64,000 nucleotides of DNA from Cellulomonas sp. KRMCY2 (GTDB lineage: Bacteria; Actinomycetota; Actinomycetes; Actinomycetales; Cellulomonadaceae): contig NZ_JAGF01000001.1 of assembly GCF_000526515.1 (NCBI RefSeq), positions 2,852,001 to 2,916,000 of the forward strand, in the 5' to 3' direction. Shown here piece after piece: positions 26,242 to 36,131 of this stretch. Position numbers and translations under genes: made by a program. Under the pieces are notes generated by a model that saw only the letters and a program-made list of their open reading frames with translations, had not been told where the DNA came from and did no database searches. Numbering within the stretch: the stretch's first letter is position 1; each line of letters begins with the position of its first letter.

Positions 26242-28359
26242 ATGACGATCCGCACTGCCTCCGCTGTCGCCTTCGGCGTGGCCCTCCTCACCGCGGCAAG
26301 CCCTGCTGTTGCGACCACCACCGCTGCCCGTGCCGCGGTGGTCACGGTCTCGTCCGGTGCGCCGGCGAGCGGTCCGATGCGGGCCCTGGCCCCCCTGGCG
26401 GGCACCACGGCGCCGGTGACCACGGACGCGGTCCCCGAGGTCGAGGTGACCGAGATGGACGTCGTCGTCCCGGCGGTCGAGGCGTCTGGTGACCTGGTCG
26501 CCACGCCGGACGTGCTCGAGGCGCAGGCGGAGCCCGACGTCATCGTGACCGACGAGGTCGTCACGGCCGACCGGGTCGAGAGCGCCGTCGTGGAGACGGC
26601 GGACTTCCAGACGCTGGGTGTGACCTGGCCGTCCGACGCCGAGGTCGCGGATCTCGGGCTCGAGGTACGGACCCGGGCCGACGGCGAGTGGACCGGGTGG
26701 ACAGCGCTCGAGCCCGCCGACGACGCGCCGGACGCGGGCACCGTCGAGGCCGAGCGCGACATGCGTGGCGGCACCGACGCGTTGTGGGTCGGTGACGCCG
26801 ACGCCGTGCAGCTCGCCTTCGCGGCGACGCCCGAGAGCGGCCCGGACGGCATCAGCCTCGCCCTGATCGGCTCGGAGGCCGTGGCCGAGCAGCCGACCGA
26901 TGCGATCGTCGGCTCGACCGACGACGACCTGACCGCGCAGACGACTGCCTTCGGCCCGGCATCGGTGACGTCGGCCGCGGTGTTCACACCGGCGACCTTC
27001 CTGTCGACCACCGCGCCCGTGTCGAACACCGTGCCCGCGGACCCGGCGCCGGCCGTGCCCGCGGACCCGGCGACCACCGGCACCGAGGGCGCGAACCCGG
27101 CAGCTGTGCTCGTCCAGGCGCCGGCGGCCCCGCGGGTGATCAGCCGGGCGGAGTGGGGTGCAGCGCCTCAGGTGTGCACCCCGGACGTGGCGCGGGGGCT
27201 GGTCGGAGCGGTCGTGCACCACACGGCAGGCTCCAACGACTACAAGACCGTCGCCGAGGCGATGAACCAGATCCGCAACGATCAGGCGTACCACATCAAC
27301 ACGCGCGGCTGGTGCGACATCGGCTACAACTTCGTCGTCGACAAGTGGGGAAACATCTACGAGGGTCGCGCGGACAGCCTCAACGCCCCCGTGATCGGGG
27401 TCCACGCCGGAGGCTTCAACACCGGGACCGTCGGCGTCTCGATGCTCGGCAACTTCAGCTCCGTCGCGACGCCTCCTGCCATGATTGACGCGGTCGGCCG
27501 GATCGTCGGTCTGCGCCTGGCCGCCTACAACATCAACCCCACGGACTCCTTCGTCTTCCACACCCTCGGGGGCGAGAACTCGAAGTTCGCCGCGGGCACC
27601 GACGTACCGCTGCCACGGGTCTTCGCCCATCGGGACGTCGCGTACACCGCATGCCCCGGCAACGTGGGCTACGGGCAGCTGCCGAACATCCGCACGACGG
27701 CGCGCGCCTACTACGACGCGACGCTCTACGCCGAGTCCCAGTCCGTGATCAAGGCGCTGTACCAGGACCTGCTGCGTCGTGGTCCGGACCCGACCGGCCT
27801 GCGTGGCTGGACGACGTCGTTGATGCAGGGCCAGAGCCAGTCGGCCCTGGTCGACACGTTGACCCGCAGCGACGAGTACATCTCCTCGCGGGTGACCAAG
27901 GCCTACCGCGAGGTCCTGGGTCGTGAGCCGGAGCCGGCCGGTGCGGCGGCGTGGCTCTCGGAGATCAAGGCCGGGCACGCGACCGTCGATGACGTCCAGC
28001 GCCGGTTCTACGACTCGGTCGAGTACTACGACATCTCCGGCGGGACGCCTCAGGGGTACGTGCGCCGGCTCTACCAGACCGTCCTGAGCCGTCCGGCCGG
28101 CGACGCCGAGGTGGCCGAGTGGTCGGCCGTCTTCGCCACCCGCGGTCGTGGTGTGGTCGTCGATGCGATCTGGTTCTCGAACGAGGCGGCGCGGATCCGG
28201 GCCGGTGCGTACTACCAGACGTTCCTGGGTCGTGGTCCTGACCCGGTGGGTCTGGCCGGCTGGGCCGACGTGCTGCTGCGGCAGGGTGAGGGTGCGGTGC
28301 GGGTCGGGATCGCCGGCAGCCTCGAGTACCGCGCCCGATCGGTGAGCCGCTTCCCCTGA
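26242..28359 (+). CDS. Secreted PGRP-type N-acetylmuramoyl-L-alanine amidase with DUF4214 tail
   Basis: A 705-residue exported wall hydrolase. A signal peptide ends near residue 25-31. An acidic, Val/Glu/Thr-rich region (about 55-300) precedes an amidase_2/PGRP domain (about 295-490) with Zn ligands H326 (or H327), H463 and C471, the set expected of an active enzyme. The C-terminal 200 residues are four DUF4214 units of about 50 residues (patterns GRxPDPxGLxGW and SxEY). ATG 26242 has AGGA upstream. It would cut the amide bond between MurNAc and the stem peptide. The last 170 codons are almost identical in DNA to the SpoIID-type gene at 34128. It starts a row of three DUF4214 genes. Confidence 0.92.
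27821..28337 (+). repeat. Long direct repeat copy 1 (DUF4214 module)
   Basis: This 517-base segment matches 35593-36109 without gaps. I count about nine mismatches by eye, nearly all clustered around 28031-28051. Similarity falls off sharply outside. It encodes most of the four-unit DUF4214 tail. Confidence 0.9.
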
Positions 28360-28378
28360 TCGGTGAGCCGCTTCCCCT
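28337..28378 (+). repeat. 21-bp tandem duplication spanning the amidase stop codon
   Basis: GATCGGTGAGCCGCTTCCCCT occurs twice without a break. The first copy supplies the last codons (SVSRFP) and the start of the stop. The second lies just downstream. It begins exactly where the long repeat with the SpoIID-type gene ends. Confidence 0.85.
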
Positions 28379-28446
28379 GATCGCCGCTGCGCGCGGGTGA
28401 CGGGGCTCACGGGCGAGCCGATCCCGACGCCGTCCGGCAACCGCGC

Positions 28447-33909: not shown

Positions 33910-34127
33910 CCGCTCCCCGTTCTCGGATCGCCGGCACGGCCGGGCCGAAGATCGCCTCCACACACTACCCGCTGACACCGGGCGGACCGCCCCGGTCGGG
34001 CCCTCGCGCGGCCGGCTCGCCCCACCGCCGTCGAGCCGGCAAGACCAACGGCCAGGCGCCGGGTCCGTGCGGTGCGTTCCGTGGTGGAATGGACGAAGCA
34101 GCGACCGTCGCCGACCATGGAGCTCTC

Positions 34128-36131
34128 ATGCACACCTTGCACCGCAGTGCCGCGCGTGCCTCGTTCACGGGCCTCGCGCTCACCGTGCTCCTGGGCGTCG
34201 TGGGCGCGCTGCCCGCCGGTGCCGCGACGGGCCTCGGGGCTGTCGTCGAGCCGGGCGCCGACGGCACGGCCGAGATCGCCGCTGCCGAGACCGCCCCGGC
34301 GGAGACCGCCGCTGCCGAGATCGCGGTCCCGACTGCGAGCTCGTCCGGCGTCGCGCTGGACTCCCAGGCCACCGACATCACCTTCACCGGTCACGGCTGG
34401 GGTCACGGCCGCGGGATGGGGCAGTACGGGGCCCTCGGCTACGCGGTCGACCACGGCTGGTCCTACAGCCAGATCCTCGCGCACTTCTACGGCGGGACGT
34501 CGGTCGGCAACGTGGGCAACCCGCCGATCTCGGTCGAGCTGACGGCCCTGAACGACAAGCCCCTCGTCGTCACCGGTACGAGCCTCACGATCAACGGCGT
34601 GCCCGTCCCCGCCGGCGTCCAGGGCCTCGTCGCCCGGACGAAGGCGGACGGCTCGATCCTGATCAGGTCGACGGGTGTGTGCTACGGAGAGATCGCCGAC
34701 ATCGGGACCTACCCGGCAGGGGTCCGGATCTCGACCACGAACCAGACGACCTTGGACGGCCTGGTGAAGGTCTGCGAGGCCTCCGGGCAGCGCGCCTACC
34801 GCGGGGACCTGTCCGTGCAGAAGCATGCGAAGACCGGGGTGCAGACCACCTTCAACCACCTTCCGCTCGAGGAGTACCTGCGCGGCGTCGTCCCGCGCGA
34901 GTCCCCGGACGGCTGGGGCACCGCCGGCGGCGGCAAGGGCATGCAGGCGCTCAAGGCGCAGGCGGTCGCGGCCCGGAGCTATGCGATCGCCGGTGGCGTC
35001 CTCGCCTCGGGCGCCAAGACGTGCGACACGACGTCCTGCCAGGTGTACGGCGGTGCCGGGTTCTGGCCGTCGGCGACCCCTCGGCTCGACGGGGACAACG
35101 CGAACGTCGCGATCGACACCACCGCCGGCGAGGTCCGGGTGATGAACGGGACCGGTGCCGTCGCGCGCACCGAGTTCAGCTCGTCGACCGGCGGCTACAC
35201 GGTCGCCGGCACGTTCCCCGCCGTCGTGGACCTCGGCGACGCCTACGCGGGCAACCCCAACCACACCTGGGTCGCGACGTTCACCATCGACGAGGTCGCA
35301 GCCACGCTCGGCATCCCGGGTGTCCGCTCGATCACGGTGACCGGCCGCAACGGCCTGGGGGACTGGGGCGGGCGCGTGACCTCGGTGCTCGTCGTCGACG
35401 GGAACGGCACGAGCCACGCGTACAGCGGTGGGGAGTTCCGTTCGGCGCTGGGCACGAGCCGGTTCAAGAGCGACTGGTTCACGTTCTCCTGGAGCTCGCA
35501 GGCCGCCTCCGAGGCCGTGGTCAGGGCGCTGTACCAGGATCTCCTCGGCCGTGCCCCCGACCCGACCGGCCTCGCGGGCTGGACGACGACCCTGATGCAG
35601 GGCCAGAGCCAGTCGGCCCTGGTCGACACGTTGACCCGCAGCGACGAGTACATCTCCTCGCGGGTGACCAAGGCCTACCGGGAGGTCCTGGGTCGTGAGC
35701 CGGAGCCGGCCGGTGCGGCGGCGTGGCTCTCGGAGATCAAGGCCGGGCACGCGACCGTCGATGACGTCCAGCGCCGGTTCTACGACTCGGTCGAGTACTA
35801 CGCGACGTCGGGCGGGACCCCGGAGGGGTACGTGCGCCGGCTCTACCAGACCGTCCTGAGCCGTCCGGCCGGCGACGCCGAGGTGGCCGAGTGGTCGGCC
35901 GTCTTCGCCACCCGCGGTCGTGGTGTGGTCGTCGATGCGATCTGGTTCTCGAACGAGGCGGCGCGGATCCGGGCCGGTGCGTACTACCAGACGTTCCTGG
36001 GTCGTGGTCCTGACCCGGTGGGTCTGGCCGGCTGGGCCGACGTGCTGCTGCGGCAGGGTGAGGGTGCGGTGCGGGTCGGGATCGCCGGCAGCCTCGAGTA
36101 CCGCGCCCGCGCCATCGCACGGTTCCCCTGA
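34128..36131 (+). CDS. Secreted SpoIID/LytB-type protein with DUF4214 tail
   Basis: A 667-residue exported protein. A signal peptide (cleavage near residue 34) and an Ala/Glu/Thr repeat region lead into a GHGWGHGRGMGQYGA segment and a SpoIID domain (to about residue 440) with YLRGVVPRE, where E258 matches the SpoIID catalytic glutamate, followed by KAQAVAARSYA. SpoIID cleaves glycan strands as a lytic transglycosylase. The last 200 residues are four DUF4214 units almost identical in DNA to the amidase tail. ATG 34128 has GGAG upstream. It and the amidase would attack complementary peptidoglycan bonds, as SpoIID and SpoIIP do in Bacillus, though no sporulation role is implied. Confidence 0.92.
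   Translation: MHTLHRSAARASFTGLALTVLLGVVGALPAGAATGLGAVVEPGADGTAEIAAAETAPAETAAAEIAVPTASSSGVALDSQATDITFTGHGWGHGRGMGQYGALGYAVDHGWSYSQILAHFYGGTSVGNVGNPPISVELTALNDKPLVVTGTSLTINGVPVPAGVQGLVARTKADGSILIRSTGVCYGEIADIGTYPAGVRISTTNQTTLDGLVKVCEASGQRAYRGDLSVQKHAKTGVQTTFNHLPLEEYLRGVVPRESPDGWGTAGGGKGMQALKAQAVAARSYAIAGGVLASGAKTCDTTSCQVYGGAGFWPSATPRLDGDNANVAIDTTAGEVRVMNGTGAVARTEFSSSTGGYTVAGTFPAVVDLGDAYAGNPNHTWVATFTIDEVAATLGIPGVRSITVTGRNGLGDWGGRVTSVLVVDGNGTSHAYSGGEFRSALGTSRFKSDWFTFSWSSQAASEAVVRALYQDLLGRAPDPTGLAGWTTTLMQGQSQSALVDTLTRSDEYISSRVTKAYREVLGREPEPAGAAAWLSEIKAGHATVDDVQRRFYDSVEYYATSGGTPEGYVRRLYQTVLSRPAGDAEVAEWSAVFATRGRGVVVDAIWFSNEAARIRAGAYYQTFLGRGPDPVGLAGWADVLLRQGEGAVRVGIAGSLEYRARAIARFP
35593..36109 (+). 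repeat. Long direct repeat copy 2 (DUF4214 module)
   Basis: Matches 27821-28337 without gaps, with the longest uninterrupted identity from about 35824 to 36109. The copies are in the same orientation 7772 bases apart, so recombination between them would delete the ABC exporter region. Confidence 0.9.

Follow-up and report, generated by a model that had tools for sequence, protein, structure and literature searches.

In Bacillus subtilis, the amidase LytC, which is of the Amidase_3 type, has CWB2 repeats in common with LytB. The lytC and lytB genes are listed together with tagG and tagH among the genes of the wall teichoic acid region (PMC8753576). One paper lists LytB, also called CwbA, as having no hydrolytic action on peptidoglycan by itself, and cites a title according to which CwbA, homologous to the autolysin and to SpoIID, stimulates cell wall lytic amidases (PMC10653849). 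Here we describe a comparable locus from Cellulomonas sp. KRMCY2, analysed within a window of 64,000 nucleotides (the whole stretch of DNA under study), in which a PGRP-type amidase and a SpoIID/LytB-type protein, both ending in a tail of DUF4214 units, are encoded on either side of a predicted Wzm/Wzt glycan exporter. We regard it as moderately probable that these two proteins would be the counterpart of LytC/LytB, a pair with a matched DUF4214 wall anchor on the exported glycan.

As in the B. subtilis region, an amidase gene and a SpoIID-type gene lie beside a polymer exporter. In contrast to LytC, the window amidase is of the Amidase_2/PGRP type, its tail is C-terminal and consists of DUF4214, and the exporter carries a Wzt_C domain; moreover, in the relatives of the window locus the tail type varies between genomes, on both proteins. 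No CWB2 match was found in the window proteins with Pfam, and the pair can therefore be said to work like LytB/LytC, not to be that pair. A preliminary description of this stretch had likened the two proteins to SpoIIP and SpoIID and had credited them with two complementary cuts in peptidoglycan. We replace this analogy with the closer one of LytC/LytB together with tagGH (PMC8753576), and two cuts are not a safe assumption because LytB by itself reportedly leaves peptidoglycan uncut (PMC10653849).

Other anchoring systems offer further points of comparison. The CWB2 repeats of Clostridioides difficile bind the polymer PSII and, like DUF4214, are a repeat module common to many surface proteins, anchored there on a wall polymer (PMC4973711); Pfam gave no CWB2 match in the window proteins. 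SLH domains are described as a non-covalent anchor on a dedicated secondary cell wall polymer (PMC12175726). An SLH module sits in the tail position of the SpoIID protein of one related locus (L085), but the window proteins have no SLH match, and the DUF4214 tail is all-alpha and folds like a linker. A review names CWB2, ChW, SLH and other wall-binding domains as companions of Amidase_2 (PMC6403190), and wall-binding tails on amidases are therefore already known; the available parts of that review, by contrast, mention no SpoIID partner with the same tail, and DUF4214 and LGFP are not in its main text. A surface-anchoring role for DUF4214 has been proposed earlier, in segmented filamentous bacteria (PMC12780176) and in a further paper (PMC11970703). 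In searches of one open-access library we found no account of matched or exchanged tails on an amidase/SpoIID pair, which is not proof of absence.

The locus is part of a 4.5-Mb chromosome (genome G000), and the G+C content is about 70-77% across most of the window. Between 26242 and 36131 the genes follow the order amidase (+), stand-alone DUF4214 protein (+), GT-C-like enzyme (-), Wzt (-), Wzm (-) and SpoIID-type protein (+). The starts at 26242, 28619 and 34128 are our own choice, made from signal-peptide-like N-termini. The features are as follows, with the supporting matches in brackets.

26242..28359, plus strand: secreted PGRP-type amidase with a four-unit DUF4214 tail (Amidase_2 2.4e-16, residues 323-474; DUF4214 3.5e-25)
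27715..28356, plus strand: DUF4214 tail of the amidase, pair subfamily (identity with the SpoIID tail; all-alpha by AlphaFold)
28619..29665, plus strand: secreted stand-alone DUF4214 protein, other tail subfamily (DUF4214 8.5e-37, four stretches)
29745..31790, minus strand: GT-C-like membrane enzyme, a weak assignment (PMT_2 1.3e-4, 22.6 bits, below the cut-off of 26.1)
31787..32992, minus strand: Wzt ATPase with a Wzt_C domain (ABC_tran 7.6e-22, Wzt_C 1.4e-22)
32992..33909, minus strand: Wzm exporter permease (ABC2_membrane 2.6e-15)
34128..36131, plus strand: secreted SpoIID/LytB-type protein with a four-unit DUF4214 tail (SpoIID 3.9e-18, DUF4214 3.1e-27)
34377..35453, plus strand: SpoIID head (HMM match)
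35499..36128, plus strand: DUF4214 tail of the SpoIID protein, pair subfamily (identity to the amidase tail)

The amidase and the SpoIID protein carry the same type of tail in 47 of the 49 loci in which both have one; 43 of these matches rest on tail-type models and four (L090, L130, L140 and L144) fall in one similarity cluster. The matched types are DUF4214 (23 loci), FG-GAP (10), FlgD_ig-like (6; FlgD_ig matched below the Pfam cut-off in three proteins, a fourth being without match), LGFP (3), ChW (2), an unnamed GYW repeat (2) and an unnamed C7 repeat (1). Random re-pairing of the tails, which ignores relatedness, gave a mean of 14.2 matches and a maximum of 24 in 10000 shuffles. The matching supports the earlier suggestion that the shared tail acts as a common address.

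These counts draw on a family sample of 40 stretches, of which 31 contain SpoIID places (of 92 matches in 80 genomes) and the rest were chosen for Wzt_C or DUF4214, on a class sample of 20 stretches (SpoIID matches occur in 185 of 393 genomes) and on named genomes, from which 80 of 558 confirmed stretches were used. Several loci are contigs of metagenome-assembled genomes (MAGs), and 'Cellulomonadaceae' is used in a broad sense for family f1, by inference. The duplicate loci L106, L107, L108, L115 and L129 were left out of tail clustering and later counts; tails shorter than 60 residues and PGRP matches below 60 bits were also left out. Tail types come from later profile models and similarity clusters, cluster 0, which chained DUF4214 to an unnamed repeat, having been split by the models. 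The models were built from the loci that they then classify, and Pfam was run on representatives, plus whole genomes for ChW. A first iterated DUF4214 model was dropped on account of false matches to PGRP heads, and no tail type was taken from it.

In relatives of the locus, other modules stand in the tail position: ChW on both proteins of L060, LGFP on both of L128 and SLH on the SpoIID protein already mentioned. In L073, CWB2 lies between the heads, after the PGRP head. Of these, ChW, SLH and CWB2 are known wall-binding modules. Because known wall-binding repeats replace the tail in this way, we infer that the tail binds the wall. Other modules occur on one partner, namely PG_binding_1 (L152) and an N-terminal LysM (L126), both of them peptidoglycan binders. 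Six loci (L073, L091, L092, L121, L122 and L177) encode PGRP amidase and SpoIID heads in a single open reading frame, and in the fused proteins of L091, L092, L121 and L122 one tail module serves both heads. DUF4214-tailed SpoIID proteins are also present in Modestobacter (L113) and in a Propionibacteriaceae MAG (L109), with no PGRP in the stretch covered.

Repeats were also counted over whole genomes. ChW gave 35 matches in G095, 30 in G033, the two genomes with ChW-tailed pairs, and zero in eight other family genomes tested; a profile search of the whole genomes found no DUF4214 match in these two, and in G063, of the same genus, DUF4214 is present and ChW absent. No DUF4214 match was found in the FlgD_ig-like genomes G008, G062, G102, G103 and G108.

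Heads and tails have different histories. In a tree of 39 PGRP heads, the 20 Cellulomonadaceae heads form one clade (100/99.8) with DUF4214, FlgD_ig-like or ChW tails, and a single clade for the DUF4214-tailed PGRP heads of Cellulomonadaceae and Acidimicrobiia was rejected by the approximately unbiased (AU) test (p-AU 0.0017). The FlgD_ig-like heads stand apart (100/100) in the 38-head SpoIID tree, where one Cellulomonadaceae clade was marginally rejected (p-AU 0.045) and one DUF4214-tailed clade was rejected (0.010). It follows from these rejections that DUF4214 was gained on, or replaced on, both heads more than once, gain and loss not being separable. Tail types are strongly clustered on the head trees. 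For the two loci with two PGRP genes (L060 and L072), the first listed gene was used in the main trees; the second PGRP of L072 was also omitted from the tree of Cellulomonadaceae with LGFP outgroups, and elsewhere its head falls with FG-GAP-tailed heads.

We then compared the tails themselves. A whole-genome profile search found nine DUF4214 proteins, three at the locus and six elsewhere, the latter having HNH/GmrSD_C, Big_13, RCC1 or metallopeptidase-like heads or, in two cases, no recognised head. The tails of the amidase and the SpoIID protein are 92.8% identical in protein (209 aa) and 95.4% identical in DNA (609 nt), and in their flanks 43/120 bases agree just upstream and 41/150 past the stop. 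The pair's tails show 34-43% identity with the genome's other seven DUF4214 proteins, which, with the stand-alone protein included, share 53-79% identity with one another. For the stand-alone tail, identity is 37-38% with those of the pair and 53-63% with the six non-locus tails. The preliminary description had assigned the same four-unit tail to all three locus proteins; this holds for the pair, whereas the stand-alone protein belongs to another subfamily, so that a single set of three locus tails is ruled out. Its observation that unit 3 opens with GGTP was correct for all three proteins, and the motif is found there in none of the genome's six other DUF4214 proteins.

Tail DNA has recently been homogenised in some lineages. 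It is 100% identical on amidase and SpoIID protein over 624 nt in L051 (G037) and over 630 nt in L061 (G099), with low identity outside the tails except for 11 nt past the stop in L061, and it is 96.9% identical in L048. Flank similarity among near-identical tail pairs ranges over 35-47/120 bases upstream and 38-58/150 after the stop. Since the amidase and SpoIID heads are unrelated and yet the tail DNA is identical, the tail alone must have been copied.

At L048:5998-7941, a SpoIID head and DUF4214 tail are split over several shifted frames, which may reflect a broken gene or a sequencing error. The DUF4214/Big_13 protein at L011:7650-10139 has an extra DUF4214 match upstream in another frame (place 1066311-1066412), a possible frame break. 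The metallopeptidase-like DUF4214-tailed protein at L013:10420-12438 adjoins a glycosyltransferase and lies some 38 kb away from the pair, and another DUF4214 protein (L010:9477-11189) is encoded close to a Wzz gene and a glycosyltransferase.

The linkage of the pair to the exporter extends through the family. Among 120 family genomes, SpoIID matches occur in 80, Wzt_C in 45 and DUF4214 in 24, and SpoIID and Wzt_C are 2.7-13 kb apart in 17 of the 18 genomes having both. The co-occurrence survey called for at the outset was positive: of the 16 family genomes that match DUF4214 three times or more, 15 have Wzt_C, versus 30 of 104 others, these being related genomes and not independent. When the eight single-match DUF4214 genomes are included, the figures, inflated by relatedness, become 16/24 versus 29/96. 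Within genus g1, that of the window, Wzt_C is also found in five of seven genomes without DUF4214; in the class sample, DUF4214 occurs in 6 of 393 genomes, the window genome included. Among 49 hand-picked loci, the gene order PGRP, Wzt, Wzm, SpoIID is seen in 11 of 15 DUF4214-tailed loci having all four genes, and PGRP, Wzm, Wzt, SpoIID in 5 of 6 FlgD_ig-like loci. Exporter linkage as a trait of DUF4214 itself is ruled out by the linked FlgD_ig-like pairs; the linkage follows the amidase/SpoIID pair whatever its tail. Tail types also group together on the Wzm tree (15 changes versus 29.0 shuffled), where ChW and CWB2 loci adjoin the main DUF4214 clade and the five FlgD_ig-like loci of Cellulomonadaceae are set apart.

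All components of the locus named in the preliminary description (three DUF4214 proteins, ABC exporter and GT-C-like enzyme) were recovered with Pfam, the GT-C assignment being weak; homologs of this enzyme are present in loci L045 and L064. The three window proteins score 88.3, 125.5 and 94.9 bits with DUF4214 (PF13946, cut-off 23.2). The amidase scores 60.7 bits with PF01510 (cut-off 26) and has HHT plus a further 12-residue motif stretch; across PGRP heads, an HHT/HNT motif is found in 63/63 and an HRD..CPG-like motif in 53/63, which we take to be the zinc-site residues of the amidase. The SpoIID protein scores 122.4 bits with TIGR02669 (SpoIID_LytB, NCBIfam cut-off 83.3) and fails the equivalog model for stage II sporulation protein D (72.7 against 234.75). 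The Glu in VVPRES, presumably the catalytic residue, is invariant in 16/16 aligned SpoIID heads; a regular expression for it matched 63 of 124 heads and was too crude for use. With an ABC2_membrane permease and an ATPase bearing Wzt_C (both by Pfam), Wzm/Wzt is predicted to be a glycan exporter, and the NCBIfam model nearest to Wzm is a galactan export permease (1.7e-13), with 50.7 bits well short of the cut-off of 380. The whole genome contains one match each for Amidase_2, SpoIID and Wzt_C, and 20 for ABC2_membrane. Because the sole Amidase_2, SpoIID and Wzt_C matches of a 4.5-Mb genome fall within about 8 kb, domain to domain, the grouping is more than chance.

The structure of the tail was predicted with AlphaFold. 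The amidase tail is all-alpha in the model (pLDDT 96.6, pTM 0.87), and its nearest folds in Foldseek are phycobilisome linkers, with one match at E <0.001 and a TM of 0.64 by target length (3osj, 2ky4). A profile of the tails matches ApcE (E 3.6e-20). The PF00427 linkers are thus kin of the DUF4214 tail in sequence and fold, but differ in that they bind phycobiliproteins; with PF00427 the three window proteins score 22.8, 22.6 and 32.5 bits, two of them under the cut-off of 28.7. That a surface module should be related to a light-harvesting scaffold is an unexpected link.

The N-terminal domain of Caulobacter RsaA is alpha-helical and is described bound to O-antigen (PMC6978808). It keeps a surface protein on a polysaccharide and is helical like the tail, but has no sequence match to it at E<=10. 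RsaA entries with bound O-antigen were at Foldseek ranks 44 and 49 (prob 0.54 and 0.51); with a weak fold match and no sequence match, RsaA was rejected as a homolog proving glycan binding and is retained as a lead only. PF13946 had no match in the control genomes except Synechococcus; Caulobacter vibrioides was in this set, its rsaA not being checked. Two alphaproteobacterial plasmid DUF4214 proteins, searched singly, matched RTX-type or cadherin chains, and a profile of six such proteins with those of the window matched phycobilisome linkers; used as bridges in single or profile searches, the plasmid proteins gave no RsaA match. A single-sequence search with the window's stand-alone tail gave no match at E<=1.

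The amidase and the SpoIID protein occur as a pair, are linked to an exporter in the family, carry matched tails and have heads whose histories are separate from those of the tails. On this basis, the PGRP amidase and the SpoIID/LytB-type protein would form one functional pair that remodels peptidoglycan, with the C-terminal DUF4214 solenoid serving as a non-covalent wall anchor that may keep both enzymes on one surface polymer. Two further steps are inferred with less support: that the likeliest ligand would be the glycan synthesised through the flanking glycosyltransferase genes and carried out of the cell by the Wzm/Wzt encoded between the pair, and that the SpoIID-type protein may assist the amidase as a LytB-like modifier. 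More tentatively, and with doubt prevailing, one may envisage an exchangeable address code in Actinomycetota, in which the repeat that recognises the strain's exported wall glycan is placed on the amidase, the SpoIID protein and other surface proteins, its copies on the first two staying identical in some lineages, glycan, exporter and anchor change together, and DUF4214 would be a glycan-binding offshoot of the phycobilisome-linker fold. The proposed anchor role would give DUF4214 a specific function that can be tested, and a possible reason why unrelated repeats (DUF4214, FlgD_ig-like, FG-GAP, ChW and LGFP) terminate these two enzyme types in different actinobacteria. Should each tail be matched to the glycan that its strain exports, genome sequences could be used to assign orphan wall polymers to their binding modules, and the tails could serve as strain-specific wall probes.

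Several observations weigh against a matched wall anchor on the exported glycan. Two loci are mismatched: L068 has an LGFP-tailed PGRP and an FG-GAP-tailed SpoIID protein, and L088 combines LGFP with an untyped tail. Only 49 of the 122 tailed loci have a tail on both proteins, 73 having it on one. The SpoIID head tree needs 8 changes for 8 tail labels, the minimum possible being 7, and few independent tail switches were therefore sampled. Among Cellulomonadaceae with LGFP outgroups, one FlgD_ig-like PGRP clade was not rejected (AU p 0.42), nor was one DUF4214 clade (0.082 for PGRP and 0.16 for SpoIID). The pair tails of L046, L047, L049, L052 and L053 are only 33-38% identical, so that homogenisation is not universal. 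The nearest solved relatives of the tail, the phycobilisome linkers, are protein binders. In G099 the pair is present and its Wzt_C lies 2.2 Mb away, and in the fragmented genome G035 (160 contigs, 91% complete) DUF4214 matches 17 times, with no match for SpoIID or Wzt_C. Finally, a Wzm-like permease lies within 12 kb at 18 of 27 DUF4214-tailed and 6 of 9 FlgD_ig-like SpoIID loci, at 6/21 for FG-GAP, 5/15 for GYW, 1/3 for C7, 1/2 for ChW, 0/5 for LGFP, 0/1 for C8 and 5/26 for untyped tails, some contigs being short, so that absence within reach does not mean absence from the genome; two of the nine DUF4214-tailed loci without such a permease within 12 kb are on stretches shorter than 16 kb.

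Some of these points would also be expected if the tail anchored its protein to the surface through peptidoglycan, an S-layer-like protein or another polymer, with Wzm/Wzt a mere neighbour. This explanation, which overlaps the wall-anchor half of our own, would suit the many loci without an exporter within reach, the far-away exporter of G099, and the LysM and PG_binding_1 modules on some SpoIID proteins. We consider it rather unlikely, given the close spacing of SpoIID and Wzt_C in the family genomes having both and the fact that exporter clade and tail type go together inside genus g1. A role as a protein-protein module, in which the DUF4214 solenoids would bind one another, joining amidase, SpoIID protein and perhaps further surface proteins in a complex or lattice, and matching would serve pairing and not wall binding, appears unlikely. 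ChW, CWB2, SLH and LGFP occupy the same position, and CWB2 binds a wall polymer (PMC4973711); moreover, seven further DUF4214 proteins, six of them outside the locus, have other heads or none, and the pairs with divergent tails argue in the same direction, even though the nearest relatives ApcE, 3osj and 2ky4 are protein-binding linkers and both the homogenised tails and the single-chain, two-head fusions fit this model too. Hitch-hiking, by which amidase, exporter and SpoIID gene travel as a cassette through descent and transfer and the matched tails reflect shared history with no functional need, seems improbable in spite of the adjacent genes, the clustering of tail types on the head and Wzm trees and the single origins not rejected within Cellulomonadaceae, because PGRP heads group by family although their tails differ, the identity of tail DNA between unrelated heads indicates that only the tail was copied, and extra-locus DUF4214 or ChW proteins occur, in the cases checked, only where the genome's own pair carries or may carry the tail in question.

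Genes near the locus encode an Epimerase_2 protein, glycosyltransferases, two FkbM methyltransferases and a GDP-mannose 4,6-dehydratase. The following were mapped as glycan-gene context.

21252..22145, plus strand: glycosyltransferase family 2 (PF00535 1.5e-26)
39285..41400: FkbM methyltransferase (minus strand) and GDP-mannose 4,6-dehydratase (plus strand) (PF05050 5.3e-23; PF16363 1.4e-123)

Frames 22453-25038 and 24879-26183, two of the ten context frames scanned, had no match and may be wrong gene calls. In L093, L094, L095 and L097 (f30, another family of the class), the SpoIID protein is nearly tailless, and exporter and PGRP were not found in 20 kb. On an alphaproteobacterial plasmid (L188:1-3499), a DUF4214 gene is flanked by genes for a glycosyltransferase and a GDP-L-fucose synthase, and DUF4214 may therefore be associated with glycan genes more widely. 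Within the window, between 48001 and 62000, the G+C content falls to about 65-67% across some of the glycan genes, as acquired DNA would show.

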